Of a stretch of DNA of 64,000 bases, positions 53,918 through 62,804 are shown piece by piece. The DNA lies in assembly GCA_009780585.1 (NCBI GenBank), contig WQZS01000015.1, forward strand, positions 1 to 64,000. The letters are read 5' to 3'. The translations under genes were made by a program, and so were the position numbers. The stretch comes from Defluviitaleaceae bacterium (GTDB lineage Bacteria; Bacillota; Clostridia; Lachnospirales; WQUN01). Every line of letters begins with the position of its first letter. The first letter of the stretch is position 1. A model generated the notes under the pieces. The model did not search any database and had not been told where the DNA came from. It saw nothing but the letters and a program-made list of their open reading frames with translations.

Positions 53918-55411
53918 ATGCAAAAAAAAACCGTCATTCCCGTCATTTGCTTGGGCGTCGTTGCCGTATTATGCACCGCGTTCGCGATTTTTATGTTGAT
54001 TAGGCCCGTACCCGCGGCGGCGCATGATCCCGATTTGCCTACGCTTATTTTGTACGAAGGGCCGCAAACCATGGACACGTCCCAATCGGCGCGGATATGG
54101 GTTGAAGGGCATGAGCTGTTCGTCTACGACGTAATGGTAAACCACGAGCATATTTGGAACTCGAACACCATCCCTTCCCGTACGCCCATGGCGTATTTCG
54201 ACTTTGAAGGGGAGCTTTTAATCGAAATCGAGGTGCCGGGGCTGGCGCAGGGTATCAATGAAGCGAAAATCCTGCCCTCCGCGCACGGCATTGTTCCGCG
54301 TGTCGAAAATAACCGTGTGTCATTTACCGTCAGCGAGCCGGGCTTCTATACCGTGGTGTATAACGACCACGTCCACCTTGCCACGCACATCTTCGCCAAT
54401 CCTTTGGAAACCGACGTACCCGACCGCGACGACCCCGATGTCATCTTCATTGACCCGGGGCATTGGACGCTGGACGCGATCGTGCTTAACAGCGGGCAAA
54501 CGCTGTATATTTCGGGCGGCGCGGTGGTTAATTCGATCGTGGTGGTGGACGGAGCGCAGGACGTAACCATACGCGGCAGAGGAATCATTTGCGGTGCCGA
54601 CCGCCCCGCGTGGAACCAACCCGGCTCCTACGCCCGCGTACCCATCGACATCCGCTCGAGCCGGAACATCACCGCCGAAGGCATCATCTTAATCAACGGC
54701 AACGCGTGGAAGTTCAATTCCTTTAATTCCGACGGATTATTCGCTTCCAATATAAAGATCATTTCCGGCAGGCAAAACGGCGACGGCTTCACCTTCCAAT
54801 CCTGCCGAAACCACCATGTGGCGGATTCCTTCGTACGGACGTGGGACGACAGCCTGGTTATCAAGAACTACGCCGGATCGTCGCGCGATATCACGTTCGA
54901 ACGCGTACAGATTTGGACCGACTTGGCCCAGTCCATGGAAATCGGCTACGAAACGAACCGCGGTTTGACGATTAACCCGACGATTTCGAACATCACCTTC
55001 CGCGATATCCACGTCCTCTACGCCAACCACAAGCCGATCATCAGCATCCACAACTCCGACGACGCCGAGATTTTCAACATCCTGTGGGAGAATATCACCG
55101 TGGACAACGCGTTCATGCGGGGCGACCATGGGGTTAACAATGAACTCATCGAGTTTAATATGATAAAAACGCATTGGTCCACCGTCCGCGACGAATGGGG
55201 CAGCATCCGCGATATCACCATCGACGGCTTAACCGTACACCGTACCCTCGACGGCAGCGTACCCATGTCCAATTTTTGGGGCGCCAACGAAAACCACACG
55301 CTGGAAAACGTCACCCTGCGCAACATTTATATCAACGGCAACCGCGTCACCACCCTGCGCGAGCTCCGCGCCCATGTAAACGACTACGCCTTCAACATCA
55401 CGATTGAATAG
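53918..55411 (+). CDS. Secreted beta-helix glycoside hydrolase-like protein (GH28/GH49 type)
   Basis: A 497-residue protein with an N-terminal signal anchor (about residues 4-28). A beta-sandwich domain is at about 40-180. The parallel beta-helix contains SGRQNGDGFTFQSCRNHHVA and RTWDDSLVIKNY, then SMEIGYETN. The architecture matches the protein at 48896-50467, so the two are probably paralogues with the same class of substrate. ATG 53918 follows GCAGGAGGGCTTGT; the longer frame upstream is not expected to be translated. Confidence 0.8.
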   Translation: MQKKTVIPVICLGVVAVLCTAFAIFMLIRPVPAAAHDPDLPTLILYEGPQTMDTSQSARIWVEGHELFVYDVMVNHEHIWNSNTIPSRTPMAYFDFEGELLIEIEVPGLAQGINEAKILPSAHGIVPRVENNRVSFTVSEPGFYTVVYNDHVHLATHIFANPLETDVPDRDDPDVIFIDPGHWTLDAIVLNSGQTLYISGGAVVNSIVVVDGAQDVTIRGRGIICGADRPAWNQPGSYARVPIDIRSSRNITAEGIILINGNAWKFNSFNSDGLFASNIKIISGRQNGDGFTFQSCRNHHVADSFVRTWDDSLVIKNYAGSSRDITFERVQIWTDLAQSMEIGYETNRGLTINPTISNITFRDIHVLYANHKPIISIHNSDDAEIFNILWENITVDNAFMRGDHGVNNELIEFNMIKTHWSTVRDEWGSIRDITIDGLTVHRTLDGSVPMSNFWGANENHTLENVTLRNIYINGNRVTTLRELRAHVNDYAFNITIE

Positions 55412-55422
55412 GAGGAAACGGG

Positions 55423-56040
55423 ATGAATAATAAAAACTACATTATTATATTTTCCGTCATAACCGTGTTGTCGCTCGCCATTTCCGCCGTCGCCCTCCTA
55501 ACGCGGCGGGGTGAGGAGCCGACCGTTAACCTTACGGTCGTACAAGCACCCGCGCAAACCGAGGCGGAATGGCCGCCCACCATTTTCAACCCCTTATCGC
55601 TGATCATCGCGCTGCCCGATACGCCCAACCTCGCGCTGGAACGGCCCGTTACCGCGTCGTCCTTTACGGACATTTATGTACCGGCAAACGCGGTGGACGG
55701 TTCGGCAACCTCCTATTGGGAGAGCCACGGCTTCCCCGCCGAGTTTACGATCGAATTGGACGGCACGCACAACGTTTCGACCGTCGCCGTCGCGCTCAAC
55801 CCTTCGTTGTTATGGGAAGCGCGTTCGCAAGCGTTTGAAATTTTGGTGAGCAGCGACGGGAACAGCTTCACTTCCATTGTTGCGAATGAAATGCACGCCT
55901 TCGACCCGACGACCGGCAACACGGTACGGGTGGACTTCGCCCCCGTGCAAGCGCGGTACGTCCGGTTGGTGTTTACGGTCAATTCCGCCGTACGCACCAT
56001 GGGGGCGCAAGCGGCGGAAATTATGGTGTTCGGTTCCTAA
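55423..56040 (+). CDS. Membrane-anchored F5/8 type C (discoidin) protein
   Basis: A 205-residue protein with a signal anchor (about residues 6-27), a short linker and one F5/8C/CBM32-like domain (LALERPVTASSFTDIYVPAN, AVDGSATSYWES, ARYVRLVF). It probably binds sugars at the cell surface. It is in the operon with the beta-helix enzyme upstream (12-bp gap). Tandem 27-bp palindromes follow its stop. Confidence 0.82.
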   Translation: MNNKNYIIIFSVITVLSLAISAVALLTRRGEEPTVNLTVVQAPAQTEAEWPPTIFNPLSLIIALPDTPNLALERPVTASSFTDIYVPANAVDGSATSYWESHGFPAEFTIELDGTHNVSTVAVALNPSLLWEARSQAFEILVSSDGNSFTSIVANEMHAFDPTTGNTVRVDFAPVQARYVRLVFTVNSAVRTMGAQAAEIMVFGS

Positions 56041-56043
56041 CGC

Positions 56044-56070
56044 GACTTGTACCGGATTCCGGTACAAGTT
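56044..56070. repeat. 27-bp palindrome (GACTT/AAGTT)
   Basis: GACTTGTACCGG, ATT, CCGGTACAAGTT. It has the same core as the copy within yifB and abuts the next palindrome directly. Confidence 0.7.
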
Positions 56071-56097
56071 AACTTCGTGTCAATTCGACACGAAGTT
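56071..56097. repeat. 27-bp AACTT/AAGTT palindrome
   Basis: AACTTCGTGTCAA then TTCGACACGAAGTT. It has the same core as 18051-18077. It forms a head-to-tail pair with the previous palindrome, just before the next gene's ribosome binding site. Confidence 0.7.
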
Positions 56098-56123
56098 GAA
56101 ATAATATTCGGGAGGTATATTTA

Positions 56124-57641
56124 ATGAAGAAACGAGTTTTCCGATTGTTGACGATCCTTGCCTTTTTCACTTTGTTCGGCGTTCTTGCGGCTTGCGGCGG
56201 CGGCGGTACATCCGGTGCCGACGGGCATACCCCCACCGCGCCCGGCGGCGTGGAGCCTTCCGAAGAAGTACGGGAGGAAATCCGCGACATCGCCACCGAT
56301 GTGGTCAACGCCGACCTTAACGTAACGATTACCTTGGGCAACTGGCCGCCCGATACCGCGCCCGCGCAGGAGCTTGCGTTGTTCGACGGTTTTCGGGAGG
56401 TTATGCGCGCCCAATACCCCAACGTGACGGTCATACCCGCGTTCTTCTCCTACACGCTGGCCAATTACCTGCCCATGGCGCGCGGCGGCACGGCGCCCAA
56501 TCTGTTCCAACCGCCCTTTACCGATCCGCAATTGTTGATTAACCAAGGGCTCGTCGCCGACGTAACCGACGCGTTGGCCGAATTCGGCTTGTTGGAAAAA
56601 TTCTCCCCTTCCTATATCGAGCTGTTGGGTGATGAGAACGGCCGTTTATTCGGCCTGCCCCGCGACGGTTATGTACTGGGGATGCACATTAATATTGACC
56701 TTTTCCGCGAAGCCGGATTGATGGACGAAAACGACTTGCCCCTCATCCCCACGACCCTGCACGAAATGGCCGAAACCGGACGCATCATCCGCGAACGCAC
56801 GGGCGCGGCGGGGCTTGTGTTCCCCGCGAGCGAAACCTTCGGCGGCTGGCTGTTCTCGAATATGGCGTGGAATTTCGGCGCGTTCGGCGAACACGCCATG
56901 CAATACCAGGACGCGGACGGCAACTGGCGCGCCAATTTCACTTCGCCGCCCATGGTCGAAGCGATGTACTTCATGCGCTCCCTGCGCTGGGATTATGACA
57001 TCCTTAACGCCGACGCCACTACGACCGATTGGGCGGGCTCGCATAACATCCTGGGTACGGGCCGCGCGGCGATGAACTTCGCCGCCAACGACTCGGTCGC
57101 CGAACCCACGGCGGGGCGCGGCCTCCCCGTGGACAGCTTCGCGCTGGCACCCTTCCCCGCGGGGCCGGGCGGGTCGTTCGCGTTAACCGGCGGTACGGCG
57201 TTTATGTTCTCGCCCGATACTTCCCATGACCAGGCGCTTGCCATTCTCGGCTTTTTGCAAATTATCGGCGTACTTCCCGTCATCACCGACGATACGGTTG
57301 CCGCCATGCGCGCGGGGGCGATTTCCGCCCGTGACCGCGGCGTACCCGTGCTTCCGCCCATCCCCGCGTGGAACGACGAGGAATTTATCGCCCAACAACG
57401 CGCCATCGCGGCGGAATTTTCCAACGTGGATATGCGCTTGTATGATGATTTCTTTGATTCCTTGGTGGACGGGCGTATATCCCTGCGCGGCGAGGAACCT
57501 GTGTTTACCCAGCAGATGTACCGCGAATTGACCGCGGTTATACAGCGTTTGATTACCCGCGAGATTGCGGATGTGCTGACGGCGCTTGAGCAAGCGGAGG
57601 GAAGATTTCAAGAGTTCCTTGATGATATGATTAACAGATAA
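56124..57641 (+). CDS. Sugar ABC transporter solute-binding lipoprotein
   Basis: A 505-residue extracellular binding protein. The signal peptide ends in LAACGGGG (lipobox Cys near residue 24). Family 1 features include MRAQYPNVTVIPAFF, INQGLVADVTDALAEFG and LFGLPRDGYVLGMHIN. It delivers the imported sugar to the permeases at 58706 and 59598, from which it is separated by an inserted GNAT gene. GGGAGGTATATTTA precedes the start. Confidence 0.92.
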   Translation: MKKRVFRLLTILAFFTLFGVLAACGGGGTSGADGHTPTAPGGVEPSEEVREEIRDIATDVVNADLNVTITLGNWPPDTAPAQELALFDGFREVMRAQYPNVTVIPAFFSYTLANYLPMARGGTAPNLFQPPFTDPQLLINQGLVADVTDALAEFGLLEKFSPSYIELLGDENGRLFGLPRDGYVLGMHINIDLFREAGLMDENDLPLIPTTLHEMAETGRIIRERTGAAGLVFPASETFGGWLFSNMAWNFGAFGEHAMQYQDADGNWRANFTSPPMVEAMYFMRSLRWDYDILNADATTTDWAGSHNILGTGRAAMNFAANDSVAEPTAGRGLPVDSFALAPFPAGPGGSFALTGGTAFMFSPDTSHDQALAILGFLQIIGVLPVITDDTVAAMRAGAISARDRGVPVLPPIPAWNDEEFIAQQRAIAAEFSNVDMRLYDDFFDSLVDGRISLRGEEPVFTQQMYRELTAVIQRLITREIADVLTALEQAEGRFQEFLDDMINR

Positions 57642-57677
57642 ATACAAAAATAAAATCCCAAGTCCCCACGTTATTCC

Positions 57678-57750
57678 GTCGCGGGGAGCAGGGGGGTTGC
57701 GCTCACTTGAAGGCGAAGTCGCTCGCTGCAACCCCCCTGCTTACCGCGAC
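57678..57750. repeat. Palindromic element P1 left of GNAT gene
   Basis: GTCGCGG..AGCAGGGGGGTTGC pairs with GCAACCCCCCTGCT..CCGCGAC. The loop contains GCGCTCACTTGAAGG and CGAAGTCGCTCGCT. The same loop occurs inverted in P2. Confidence 0.7.
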
Positions 57751-57824
57751 TGTTAGCCGGCACAAGGCAATGTATCATCGTAATATATGGTAAGTGCGTA
57801 AATTTACATCATCGGAGGTAGCGC

Positions 57825-58367
57825 ATGACAATTAAAACTAATCGGTTATTGTTGCGTGATTTATGTGAAGAAGATGTAAATGAAGTGTATAAATTGTTTT
57901 CCAACAAGGACACAATGTTGTATTTGGATTTGCCACATTCGGATATTGAACACACAAAAAAGTATATTACAGAATTGTTGGCAAGATACTTGGAAACCCC
58001 ACGTAGGTGTTACGAATTAGCAGTTATTTTAACCGAAACGAATACGTTCATCGGAGTAGTTAATCTTGACATCGAACATCCGTATCTCAAAGATGCGCGA
58101 GCGTGCTTGGATTATTACTTTCTGCCTGAATATTGGGGACAGGGGTATGCAACTGAGGCAAGTACAGCCTTGATAAAATTCGCGTTTGAAACGCTCGAAG
58201 TAAACAAAATTACGGCTGGCACGATGAAGTGCAACATTAACTCGGAAACTGTTATGAAAAAATGTAGAATGATACAAGAAGCTGAATTTAAGCAACATAC
58301 GCAATTCAACGGTGAATGGGTAAGCAGGGTTGAATATGCAATTTTGAAACAAGAATATTTCGCTTAA
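57825..58367 (+). CDS. GNAT family N-acetyltransferase (RimJ/RimL-like)
   Basis: A 180-residue acetyltransferase of the Acetyltransf_3 type: IKTNRLLLRDLCEEDVNEVY at the start, YYFLPEYWGQGYATEASTAL (acetyl-CoA loop) and KITAGTMKCNINSETVMKK. Its codons are much more AT-rich than those of its neighbours. It splits the solute-binding protein gene from its permeases and is flanked by inverted copies of a palindromic element, so it is very likely an insertion. Confidence 0.88.
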   Translation: MTIKTNRLLLRDLCEEDVNEVYKLFSNKDTMLYLDLPHSDIEHTKKYITELLARYLETPRRCYELAVILTETNTFIGVVNLDIEHPYLKDARACLDYYFLPEYWGQGYATEASTALIKFAFETLEVNKITAGTMKCNINSETVMKKCRMIQEAEFKQHTQFNGEWVSRVEYAILKQEYFA

Positions 58368-58559
58368 CAGACATTAATAACGTTATTTTCACTCTTCACA
58401 GATTACATCCTATGGATCATTTGTATAACCGTTCAACGAAGCGCCAAATATAAATCATGCAAGATGGACGGACGAATAATTGCTGTCATTTCCGATACCG
58501 CATTTGCACCTTGCAATTAAAACCTTGTACCCTCCGCCCCATCCGTTAACCAGCCGTAA

Positions 58560-58613
58560 GGGAGGGGGTTGCAGCGACCGACTTCGCCTTCAAGGGAGCG
58601 CAACCCCCTCCCT
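58560..58613. repeat. Palindromic element P2 right of GNAT gene
   Basis: GGGAGGGGGTTGC pairs with GCAACCCCCTCCC. In reverse the loop reads GCGCTCCCTTGAAGG and CGAAGTCGGTCGCT, with two changes from P1. The stem differs from that of P1 but is fully self-complementary. No other gene was seen in 58368-58705. Confidence 0.7.
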
Positions 58614-58705
58614 CCCGGCGGGAATGATTGGAGCCGGAGCGTTTCTTAGCGGAAGCAAATGGAGCCGTGATGTATTTCTATAATAACAAAATCGGAGGCC
58701 GATAA

Positions 58706-59584
58706 ATGACCAAAGCCCGCCAGCAATTAACCAGTTGGATGATCATGCTTCCCGGCATCGCGCTCTTCGCGTTTTTCCTGTGGATACCGCTGGTGCAGAG
58801 CGTGCGCATGAGCTTTTACCGTACGCGCAACGTCGAACTGATCGAGTTCGTGGGGTTCGATAATTACGTCAGCATCTTCGGGCGGCAGGAATTTCAGCAG
58901 GCGTTGCTCAATACGTTTATGTATACGTTTTGGTCGCTGCTCATCGGCTTCGTCGTGCCGATCTTTTTGGCGCTGGTGATCGGTGAAACGGTACGCAGCC
59001 GTGGGTTCTTCCGTACGGCGGCGTATTTGCCGAATATTCTGCCGGGTCTGGCCGCGATGATTTTGTGGCGGGCGTTTTGGTCGGCGGAAACCACGGGCGT
59101 AATCAATATCATGCTGGGGCATTTGGGTTTTGAGCCCATGACGTTCCTTACCGAAGCGAATTGGGTCATCCCGATTATCGTGGTCGTTTCCACTTGGCGG
59201 GGCGCGGGGGCGACGGCGCTTATCTACATGGCGGGGCTTGCGGGGGTCAACCCCGAATTGTACGAAGCCGCCACCATCGACGGCGCGGGCGTGATGAAGC
59301 GCGTGCGCCACATTACGTTGCCCGCTATCTTTAATTTAGGCTCGACGCTTCTTATCTTGCAAATCATCGCCGTGTTCCAAATCATGTACGAACCGCTCGT
59401 CTTAACGAGGGGCGGGCCGGACAACGCCTCCATGTCGCTGATGCTCCTTATGTGGCAGTATGCCTTCGGCGGGAACATGGACTTCGGGCGGGCGAGTGCC
59501 GTTGCGGTGATCACGGCGTGTATATTACTGTGCTTTACCGCGTTGTATTCCTTCGTCAACCGGCGAAGGACCGAATGGGATTAA
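58706..59584 (+). CDS. Sugar ABC transporter permease (UgpA/MalF type)
   Basis: A 292-residue membrane protein with six helices and the EAA loop ELYEAATIDGAGVMKRVRHI at about residue 190. CGGAGGCCGATAA precedes the start. With the next gene it forms the channel for the solute-binding protein at 56124. Confidence 0.92.
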   Translation: MTKARQQLTSWMIMLPGIALFAFFLWIPLVQSVRMSFYRTRNVELIEFVGFDNYVSIFGRQEFQQALLNTFMYTFWSLLIGFVVPIFLALVIGETVRSRGFFRTAAYLPNILPGLAAMILWRAFWSAETTGVINIMLGHLGFEPMTFLTEANWVIPIIVVVSTWRGAGATALIYMAGLAGVNPELYEAATIDGAGVMKRVRHITLPAIFNLGSTLLILQIIAVFQIMYEPLVLTRGGPDNASMSLMLLMWQYAFGGNMDFGRASAVAVITACILLCFTALYSFVNRRRTEWD

Positions 59585-59597
59585 AGGGGGTAATTAT

Positions 59598-60479
59598 ATG
59601 AAGATAAAAAAATCGGCACCCCCCCGTACGGGCATCATACGCGACTACGACAGCAGGAAGCTGAGCGTCAAAATCGCGCTCGTCGTCGTTTATGTGTTTT
59701 GCGTTTGTATCGTGTTGGTTTCGCTGTTCCCCATTTATTGGGTGCTGATGGCGGGATTTAAGGATCTGCGGGAATTTATGAACAGTACCTCCATTCATCC
59801 TTCCGTTTTTGAATTTGCCCGCTACACGCGTACGTGGACGCAGTTGGGCATCATGCGCAATTATTTGAATTCATTTTACGTGATTGCGGGGAGCGTGTTT
59901 TTTGCGCTGGTGGTCAACGGGCTGCTGGCGTACGGTTTGGCGATCCTTAAACCCAAGGGGCATGGGATTGTTAACAAAATGGTTGTGTTGTCGCTGTTAA
60001 TACCCGCGACGATCGCGCTGGTGCCGCTGTTTATCAATATCATGAACATGAATATGGGCGGTTTCTTTACGCCCTTGTGGCTGGCCGCCGGAGCGAACGC
60101 CTTTTACGTCATCGTCTTCCGGCAATTCTTCCTGTCCCTGCCGCCTTCGCTGATCGACGCGGGGCGTATCGACGGCTGCTCGCAGTTGGCTATTTTCTCA
60201 AAGATCGTCATGCCGTTATCAAAGCCGATTTGCGTGGTGGTTACGATTTTTACGGTCAACGGCGTTTGGAGCGACTTCCTCCTGCCGTATTTGGTGCTGG
60301 GCGTGGGGCGTTGGCAGACGGTTATGGTACGGCTTTTCGTGTTCAGCACACAGCAGACGATCAACCACGACGACTTGATGCGGGCGGTGGTCTTCTCCAT
60401 GATACCGCCGATTATTTTGTTCTTTATCTTCCAAAAGAAATTGACGGAGAATATCGTTACAGTCGGCATTAAAGGCTAG
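59598..60479 (+). CDS. Sugar ABC transporter permease (UgpE/MalG type)
   Basis: A 293-residue membrane protein with six helices and the EAA loop SLIDAGRIDGCSQLAIFSKI near residue 180. AAAGGGGGTAATTAT precedes the start. It ends 12 bp before the GH65 gene, so import and phosphorolysis are probably co-expressed. Confidence 0.92.
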   Translation: MKIKKSAPPRTGIIRDYDSRKLSVKIALVVVYVFCVCIVLVSLFPIYWVLMAGFKDLREFMNSTSIHPSVFEFARYTRTWTQLGIMRNYLNSFYVIAGSVFFALVVNGLLAYGLAILKPKGHGIVNKMVVLSLLIPATIALVPLFINIMNMNMGGFFTPLWLAAGANAFYVIVFRQFFLSLPPSLIDAGRIDGCSQLAIFSKIVMPLSKPICVVVTIFTVNGVWSDFLLPYLVLGVGRWQTVMVRLFVFSTQQTINHDDLMRAVVFSMIPPIILFFIFQKKLTENIVTVGIKG

Positions 60480-60491
60480 GAGGCGCGGCAC

Positions 60492-62804
60492 ATGGCAAAA
60501 CAGGCGGACAAATACTTCGCGACCGATACGTGGAAGGTAATCGAAAACGGCTTCGACCCGAAATACGCGCGGGTGTCGGAATCGGTCTTCGCGCTGTCCA
60601 ACGAAACGCTGGGCGTGCGCGGGTACTTTGACGAGGGCGGCACGGCGGACAGCCTGCGCGGGGCTTATATCAACGGTGTATACGATATCGACCAATTACC
60701 CCGTTCCTACAAAGGTATCGTGGACAAAACCCATTTTATGATACCCGCGGCGGATTGGCTGCACACGGCAATCGACATGGACGGCGAAAAGCTGGACTTG
60801 GGGCGTGTAAAATTCAGCGGTTTCACGCGGGAGCTGGATTTACGCAAGGGGACGCTTACGCGCAGGTTTATATGGCATACGAAGTCGGGCAAGGATTTAC
60901 AGCTTACTTTTTTGCGTTTCGTGGACATGACGCACGGCGAACGCGCGTACCAACGGATCACCTTTCTGCCGCTCAACTTCTCCGGCAATGTGGGGGTCAT
61001 ATCGGGCATTAACTTCAACGTAAAGCACCAAGGCCGCGATAAGTGCTTTTGGAACAGCCTTAAAACGGAAACGAACCGCGAAACCTGCGCGCTTACGGCA
61101 CGCACTTTGTCCTCCGGGCAGGAGGTGTTCGCGGGGATGCACGTAGAAATGGGGAACGATACGTTAGCGATGGATACCTGCGGCGAAAAATCCGCCGCCA
61201 TAAAAGGCTATGTTAATTTGAAAAAGGGTGAACCGATTTCCGTTGACAAGCGCGTGGTCATCGTATTCGCGCCCATGGACCATCACGACAGCGAAAGCCT
61301 TTGGCAAGACGGGCAAAAGAAATTAAAAGAATCGATGAACGTCCCCTTCGAGGACGCTTTAAAAGCACAGGAAGCCTACTGGGAAAAACATTGGCAGCTT
61401 TCCGACGTAATAATCGAGCCCGCCGACGGCGAATCAATCGAAACCGTCGCCCAAGAACAGCAGGGCATCCGCTTCTGCTCCTTCCAAATGGCGCAGACCT
61501 ATAAAGGCGGCAGCGTTTCCCACAACATCGGCGCGAAGGGTTTGACCGGGGAAGCCTACAACGGCCACGCTTTTTGGGATACCGAGGCTTGCTGTTTCCC
61601 GTTCTACCTCTTTACTAACCCCGAAGCGGCAAAAAGCCTGCTCCTATTCCGTTACAACACGCTCCCCCAAGCCATCGAACGCGCCAAAATGCTCGACTGC
61701 GAAGGCGCGTGCTACCCCATCGCCACCCTCAACGGCGACGAAGCGTGCAACCTGTGGCAACACGCCAGCTTGCAATTCCAGCCTTCAACGGCGGTGGCGT
61801 ACGGCATTTGGCACTATGTAAAGGTCACGGGGGACACGGCTTTCCTGTGGGAATACGGGGCGGAAATGCTCTTGCAAATCGCCCGTTTTATGGCGAGCCG
61901 TGTCGGGCAGAACCCGCACACCGGGCAATACGGCTACTACGGCGTGATGGGGCCGGACGAATTTAAAATGATGGTGAACAACAACGCCTACACAAACTAC
62001 ATGGGTAAACGCGCGTTGGAATACGCCGCCGAAACATTGACGCGTATGGAAAATGAAACGCCCGGCGCTTTCGCACGCTTGTCGCAAGCCGCAAGCCTCA
62101 CTCCAGCGGAAATCAACCGCTGGCAAACCATCGCCGATAACATGGCCATCCCCGCCACCCCCGAGGGCTTGATCGAACAGCACGACGGCTATTTCGGCTT
62201 GCCCCACATCGACATAAACGCCATCCCCGTAGAAGAGTTCCCCCTGTACAACCATTGGTCGTACGACCGCATCTACCGCTCCAACATGATTAAACAGCCC
62301 GATGTACTGATGTTCCTGTACCTTTACAATTCCTCCTTCACGCTCGAGCAGAAGCGCACTAACTACGAATACTACGAGCCGCGTACCATCCACGAATCAT
62401 CCCTTTCCCCCGCGGTCCATTCCATTTTGGCGGCGGAACTGGACCGCATGGACGAAGCGACGCGGTTCTTCGGCTACGCCACGCGGTTGGATTTGGACAA
62501 TTACAACCGCAATACCTGCGAGGGCTTGCACACCACGTCCATCGCGATGGCGTGGGTCAACATCGTTTACGGCTTTGCGGGTTTACGTTCGGACGGGGAT
62601 ATCCTGCGTTTCGCCCCGCGCCTGCCCGACCGCTGGAAAAGCCTGCGCTTTTCCCTCACTTGGCAAGGCCGCATCCTCGAAATAGAAATGCAAAAAAATA
62701 AGACCCTGTTTACGTTGAAACAGGGTGAGGGGATGGAGTATTTGGTGTACGAGAAAAATGTTTCACTTAACGAAGGTAGTTATATCAAAATACAAAATAA
62801 TTAG
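60492..62804 (+). CDS. GH65 family disaccharide phosphorylase
   Basis: A 770-residue enzyme. It has an N-terminal beta-sandwich (about 1-290), a linker, an (alpha/alpha)6 barrel with GYYGVMGPDEFKMMVNNNAY carrying the catalytic Glu, HESSLSPAVHSILAAELDRM (phosphate region), and a small C-terminal beta domain. GH65 members phosphorolyse maltose, trehalose, kojibiose, nigerose and others to beta-glucose-1-phosphate; the exact sugar cannot be read here. pgmB in the same locus fits this product. It overlaps the convergent gene by 4 bp. Confidence 0.92.
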   Translation: MAKQADKYFATDTWKVIENGFDPKYARVSESVFALSNETLGVRGYFDEGGTADSLRGAYINGVYDIDQLPRSYKGIVDKTHFMIPAADWLHTAIDMDGEKLDLGRVKFSGFTRELDLRKGTLTRRFIWHTKSGKDLQLTFLRFVDMTHGERAYQRITFLPLNFSGNVGVISGINFNVKHQGRDKCFWNSLKTETNRETCALTARTLSSGQEVFAGMHVEMGNDTLAMDTCGEKSAAIKGYVNLKKGEPISVDKRVVIVFAPMDHHDSESLWQDGQKKLKESMNVPFEDALKAQEAYWEKHWQLSDVIIEPADGESIETVAQEQQGIRFCSFQMAQTYKGGSVSHNIGAKGLTGEAYNGHAFWDTEACCFPFYLFTNPEAAKSLLLFRYNTLPQAIERAKMLDCEGACYPIATLNGDEACNLWQHASLQFQPSTAVAYGIWHYVKVTGDTAFLWEYGAEMLLQIARFMASRVGQNPHTGQYGYYGVMGPDEFKMMVNNNAYTNYMGKRALEYAAETLTRMENETPGAFARLSQAASLTPAEINRWQTIADNMAIPATPEGLIEQHDGYFGLPHIDINAIPVEEFPLYNHWSYDRIYRSNMIKQPDVLMFLYLYNSSFTLEQKRTNYEYYEPRTIHESSLSPAVHSILAAELDRMDEATRFFGYATRLDLDNYNRNTCEGLHTTSIAMAWVNIVYGFAGLRSDGDILRFAPRLPDRWKSLRFSLTWQGRILEIEMQKNKTLFTLKQGEGMEYLVYEKNVSLNEGSYIKIQNN

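Follow-up and report, generated by a model that had tools for sequence, protein, structure and literature searches.

In the genome of a Defluviitaleaceae bacterium, a GNAT acetyltransferase gene flanked by two palindromic elements in opposite orientation lies inside a transporter operon. The arrangement raises the question of whether the palindromes carried the gene into the operon, as a first-pass annotation of the sequence had proposed, or whether gene and palindromes arrived independently. The window referred to below is the whole stretch of 64,000 nucleotides analysed (contig WQZS01000015.1), and coordinates without a locus prefix are positions within it.

The interrupted operon and its two palindromes

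The solute-binding protein (SBP) gene (56124-57641, plus strand; SBP_bac_1, PF01547) lies upstream of the insert and a permease gene (58706-59584, plus strand; BPD_transp_1, PF00528) lies downstream. The SBP gene is recovered in 6 of 60 relatives besides its own genome (E < 1e-40), and in all six it adjoins the permease gene directly with no GNAT match between them, the gaps spanning ~5 to 250 bp as judged from tblastn ends. This uninterrupted state agrees with the annotation's description of an insertion into the operon; a GNAT gene shared by all relatives at this site, which would speak against it, is not found at any of the six junctions. In the most compact relative, the congener G001, the SBP stop codon lies 2 bp before the permease start, and measured against it the insert covers positions 57642-58705 (1064 bp), with the first palindrome (P1), the GNAT gene and the second palindrome (P2) all missing from the empty operon. 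Apart from any native spacer it may include, this segment is new to the genome. The two palindromes do not form its ends, as 36 bp between the SBP stop and P1 (57642-57677) and 83 bp between P2 and the permease start (58623-58705) lie outside them, both missing in G001 and described by length and GC. Part of this outer DNA could be native spacer, since the SBP-permease spacer of the relative G011 is 84 bp.

The GNAT gene (57825-58367, plus strand; PF13302, E 3e-28) has a GC content of 0.37 and a GC3 of 0.39 versus 0.74-0.76 in the SBP and permease genes, in agreement, together with the Pfam matches, with the annotated picture of an AT-rich GNAT gene splitting SBP from permease. It is present as a single copy in this genome and has no ortholog in the 60 relatives, where hits in 31 are only 25-37% identical (best 37%), and matches in plasmid and phage records are all below 60% identity, the best listed being 33%. 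With the same moderate confidence that attaches to the favoured explanation as a whole, the gene is probably a singleton gained by horizontal transfer and placed between SBP and permease.

P1 (57678-57750, plus strand, 73 nt) has arms at 57678-57700 and 57728-57750 that are 91% complementary and a loop core CTTGAAGGCGAAGTCG at 57706-57721. P2 (58550-58622, minus strand, 73 nt) belongs to the same family in reversed orientation, with arms at 58550-58572 and 58600-58622 (87% complementary) and the loop core at 58579-58594; P1 was placed correctly by the annotation, whereas P2 ends at 58622 rather than 58613. Inverted, the two match at 85% over 68 nt. Their loops differ at two bases and their self-complementary arms are different, as had been noted. 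Folded as DNA hairpins and compared with 200 shuffles, P1 has a z-score of -6.1 and P2 of -4.4, with no shuffle as good, and the exact loop 15-mer occurs in the window only at P1 and P2. A separate feature at 56045-56101 comprises two adjacent short perfect palindromes, CTTGTACCGGATTCCGGTACAAG and the ACTTCGTGTC/GACACGAAGT hairpin, which match many other places in this genome and in the congener G002 at 26-35 nt and probably represent further repeat families.

Dispersed copies and their insertion sites

Exact matches to the 16-nt loop core number 13 in the bacterium's own genome (G000), 19 in G002 (a Defluviitaleaceae MAG of a series that presumably derives from termite guts) and one in G029, with none in the other 143 of the 146 genomes searched; the G029 sequence does not fold as an element and was rejected as a member. 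A covariance model was built from 28 copies, the alignment A1 holding 28 of the 33 loop-core copies and leaving out one nested copy, three with altered loop or register and that of G029. Over 41 genomes and under strict filters the model finds at least 21 places in G000 and at least 28 in G002, each place counted once, and none in G001, G003, G004 or 35 further relatives; the listing holds these 49 places plus a hit in G041, which is an unrelated hairpin and not a family copy. The counts are lower bounds, as a degenerate mfd copy in G000 is missed by the model, which listed the mfd element in G002 only although direct comparison locates it in both genomes. Among the genomes searched the family is found only in this species and G002. 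A wider contig search gives matches also outside the Defluviitaleaceae, plus three viral-contig hits, all of these being sequence matches only.

The annotation had treated the palindromes as repeated elements, and comparison of G000 with G002 extends this to a dispersed family with presence and absence at individual sites. On G002 contig C45 an intergenic copy of ~117 bp, flanked on both sides by ACC (a possible 3-bp target-site duplication), has no counterpart in the G000 sequence, which is otherwise closely similar. Nearby, a further copy whose arms are the same and whose flanks are similar is likewise lacking in G000, along with more DNA, ~200 bp in all. The tatD gene of G002 carries an in-frame copy, exactly 90 bp long, that the G000 gene lacks, with no clear target-site duplication. 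The DNA gained 5' of the hairpin amounts to ~0 and 13 bp in the two single-copy insertions. Less clean sites are uvrA, where the genomes differ by 45 nt, possibly through partial loss, and rnr, where the insert is accompanied by a second change. Family copies are mobile, inserting singly in spacers or in-frame in genes. Even without this copy, the tatD of G000 contains, by eye, additional residues about a quasi-palindrome AAGGGGGG...CCTTCCCCCC (tatD at L113 and L202); these may stem from an older insertion that served as the target of the G002 copy. On G002 contig C1, two copies with nearly identical arms lie 6 kb apart, one of them in the NFACT/RqcH-like gene (copies concerned: L059 1380-1455, L164 3793-3868, L103 3349-3424), which suggests a local duplication.

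Twelve of the 21 places in G000 fall within long open reading frames assigned to genes, namely thiN, lysA (twice), an NFACT/RqcH-like gene, cinA, miaB, rnr, rlmD, uvrA, hemZ, trmD and a polyol dehydrogenase-like gene. In G002 the figure is 14 of 28, the additional genes being addB (twice), an MFS transporter, tatD and mfd; no family-supported reading frame spans the other places. For most ortholog pairs one member was scanned against family profiles, and the assignment was extended to the rest by matching peptide context. The rnr insert lies between domains, and in the polyol dehydrogenase-like gene the profile match stops before the insert. Five of the six reading frames through the loop core are open, both strands are used, and each of the five occurs in genes, giving peptides of the LKAKS, SLEGE, RLRLQ, PTSPS and TDxAxKG types. 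In these genomes, 25-30-residue inserts in conserved enzymes can be derived from the element.

The annotation had seen no transposase in the unit, and the absence extends to the genus genomes searched, a Y1-type transposase (Y1_Tnp, PF01797) being detected in none of the five, which are drafts, with the control positive in 5 of 14 named genomes. The reverse transcriptase profile PF00078 (RVT_1) is matched in G001 and G002 and was rejected as the mover on its absence from G000. Profile searches with Y1_Tnp and RVT_1 identify no mobilising enzyme. A natural guess for the mover would be an activity recognising the loop once the hairpin is extruded.

Hairpin architecture and changes in the arms

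The element unit is a bulged hairpin composed of long arms, an 11-nt bulge, a 5-bp inner stem and a hexaloop. The loop columns are nearly invariant, in part from the choice of rows, and the inner arm pairs are mostly conserved; the outer arms are near-random within a purine-rich frame and yet complementary. Paralogs disagree at 57-59% in the outer arm columns, both sides have changed in 23 of the 24 arm pairs, and arm covariation is 0.64, compared with 0.21 after shuffling and no more than 0.22 with the arms slid. Across 11 ortholog pairs (231 arm pairs) there are 10 double and 9 single changes, where ~0.9 and 27 would be expected if the sides changed independently; a further five pairs, in which hairpins are nested or lengths differ, are excluded from this count. 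Few arm cells are G-U and Watson-Crick double changes are common, some of them G-C to C-G or G-C to T-A, that is, without a G-U intermediate. The co-change of the arms fits arm-to-arm templating in DNA, with selection as the alternative; templating of this kind is proposed for other palindromes in the relevant portion of PMC6649704. After insertion the arms would then change together, most likely with one arm templating the repair of the other during replication.

Divergence of the outer arms relative to the loop is ~8-fold in orthologs and ~6-fold in paralogs, where it is saturated, the choice of exact-core rows lowering loop divergence; ratios of this order do not separate arm diversity present at insertion from that gained by drift. 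Templating of the arms from the target flank was considered and rejected, as exact arm-flank matches are no longer in an element's own flanks than in those of other copies (tests on 36 elements and on 29 elements, p 0.57-0.97), and the steady purine bias of the 5' arms also disfavours it. Part of one arm looks native by eye in the second lysA copy, and next to the rnr insert a 9-nt stretch of the arm recurs; neither observation generalised. Linked positions in the loop were likewise rejected as base pairs, the C/G, A/C, T/T pattern of G000 being broken by A/T and C/C copies in G002, which makes the pattern one of lineage linkage.

Some copies contain a small second hairpin nested mostly in the loop (G000 contigs C5 and C33, G002 contigs C10 and C17; L162 3513-3612, L167 9805-9901, L104 5512-5608 and L067 near 3396). 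The thiN copy of G002 (97 nt) contains such a nested hairpin, and that of G000 (76 nt) lacks it.

Origin of the arrangement and relation to known elements

The favoured and probable explanation is that P1 and P2 are copies of a small mobile palindrome (~90-117 bp), similar in behaviour to the Rickettsia palindromic elements (RPEs), that settled around an independently acquired GNAT gene. Copies would insert singly, in spacers or in-frame, with presumably only frame-keeping insertions surviving in genes. The GNAT gene would have arrived horizontally between the SBP and permease genes, and the palindromes most likely landed in or near the non-coding DNA that it brought, as later settlers and not as carriers. 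Independent arrival is favoured because the GNAT gene is a single copy, the two palindromes have new DNA on their outer sides, the other close pairs arose as independent insertions in different genes and the left palindrome at a comparable locus, the dnaA-dnaN spacer, has a different loop. That close pairs can arise by separate insertions is illustrated by the thiN and lysA copies, which lie 0.9 kb apart in G000 and ~4 kb apart in G002.

The proposal of the first-pass annotation, a cassette moved with or by the palindromes, would correspond to a composite unit in which facing palindromes and gene move together, an enzyme acting on the hairpins in trans. Taken at this locus alone a single event is the more economical, since P1, GNAT and P2 are all absent from the operons of the six relatives, and facing orientation is in excess, occurring in 6 of 9 pairs closer than 2 kb (P ~0.01, with P1/P2 included and the test framed after they had been seen). 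A search for other genes flanked by the loop motif produces one further case, so that an extra gene is bracketed by palindromes at only two loci. In the dnaA-dnaN spacer of G000 an M23-peptidase-like gene (L072 1889-2488, GC 0.41) lies between a family copy and another palindrome (L072 1541-1800), but the latter, on the left where G002 has a family copy, has a different loop. No second place with P1-GNAT-P2 is found in G000, and no ortholog of the gene in the 60 relatives. Copies are mostly solitary and about half lie in genes, and the 36 and 83 bp outside the palindromes compare with ~0 and 13 bp in the single-copy insertions, which, with the missing Y1 transposase, makes a composite unit unlikely.

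A rather improbable reading reverses the order, with a break or fork stall at a pre-existing hairpin pair capturing the GNAT DNA. The clustering of palindrome copies in the genome is in its favour, as is the dnaA-dnaN spacer: in G002 it contains a pair of family copies separated by 287 bp with no gene, and in G000 it retains the right-hand one, with the M23-like gene between that copy and another palindrome. That gene is in this spacer in G000 only; a homolog lies elsewhere in G001 (73%; free of nearby hairpins and of dnaA or dnaN within 1.5 kb in either direction), and G003 has a remnant containing a stop codon. The reading rests, however, on two loci, the odd loop of the left palindrome argues against it at one of them, and no strain is known with P1 and P2 but without GNAT. 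Functional RNA hairpins (terminators, mRNA stabilisers or a protein-binding loop) under selection and immobile would account for strong hairpins with covarying arms and for the many sites kept in both genomes, but are very improbable given the clean presence and absence between close genomes, the in-frame copies in five frames on both strands, the Watson-Crick double changes with little G-U, and the absence of any Rfam family at the gathering score over window positions 55000-61000, where there is one sub-threshold hit.

Beyond the favoured account of singly settling copies, a more far-reaching version is possible but doubtful: an inside-out mobile palindrome whose identity resides in a ~27-nt loop, whose arms are free and stay complementary through arm-to-arm DNA templating, which invades housekeeping genes in-frame, in any of five reading frames, and whose facing pairs could capture genes such as GNAT.

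Compared with known systems, MITEs (RUP, Correia, ERIC, QMITE) are likewise short, non-autonomous and hairpin-forming, located in spacers and sometimes genes, according to excerpts of PMC2229807 and PMC5896051; their terminal inverted repeats are conserved, whereas here conservation is central and the ends vary, with no conserved terminal repeats shared between paralogs. REP elements with RAYT transposases are also short palindromes dispersed in a genome, but no Y1_Tnp gene is found in this genome or four congeners and the copies here are often intragenic. The conserved-centre plan of the family would not fit integron attC sites. The coding palindromes of Nematomorpha mitochondria are intragenic perfect inverted repeats with complementary arms for which template switching is proposed; they differ in being mitochondrial and longer and, in the portion of PMC6649704 that treats them, are not described as a shared-loop family.

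Within the open-licence literature no report of this palindrome family, or of in-frame palindromes in this bacterial group, was found. By their descriptions rather than by sequence, the elements closest in behaviour appear to be the RPEs, which excerpts of PMC2229807 and PMC10969869 portray as palindromes of ~100-150 bp occurring in many copies, both in spacers and, in-frame, within conserved genes, the mover being unknown. The dispersed hairpins of ~105-146 bp that mark RPEs have a counterpart here in units of ~117 and 90 bp at 21 and 28 places, and in-frame copies in conserved genes occur beside those in spacers. RPEs encode a conserved peptide (in the part of PMC10969869 concerned), whereas here five frames and both strands are used; with this feature lacking and the likeness being one of behaviour alone, the family is not filed as an RPE. 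The host group is another, and the arms stay complementary, while RPE arms lose identity over time as described in part of PMC6649704. In-frame palindromic insertion at such a scale is best known from Rickettsia, and a passage of a 2024 review regards a similar process in other prokaryotes as merely conceivable (PMC10969869). The present case is in a Defluviitaleaceae genus, where two close genomes catch insertions at the single-base level and the arms co-change, so that both the spread of such palindromes and the upkeep of their arms become testable.
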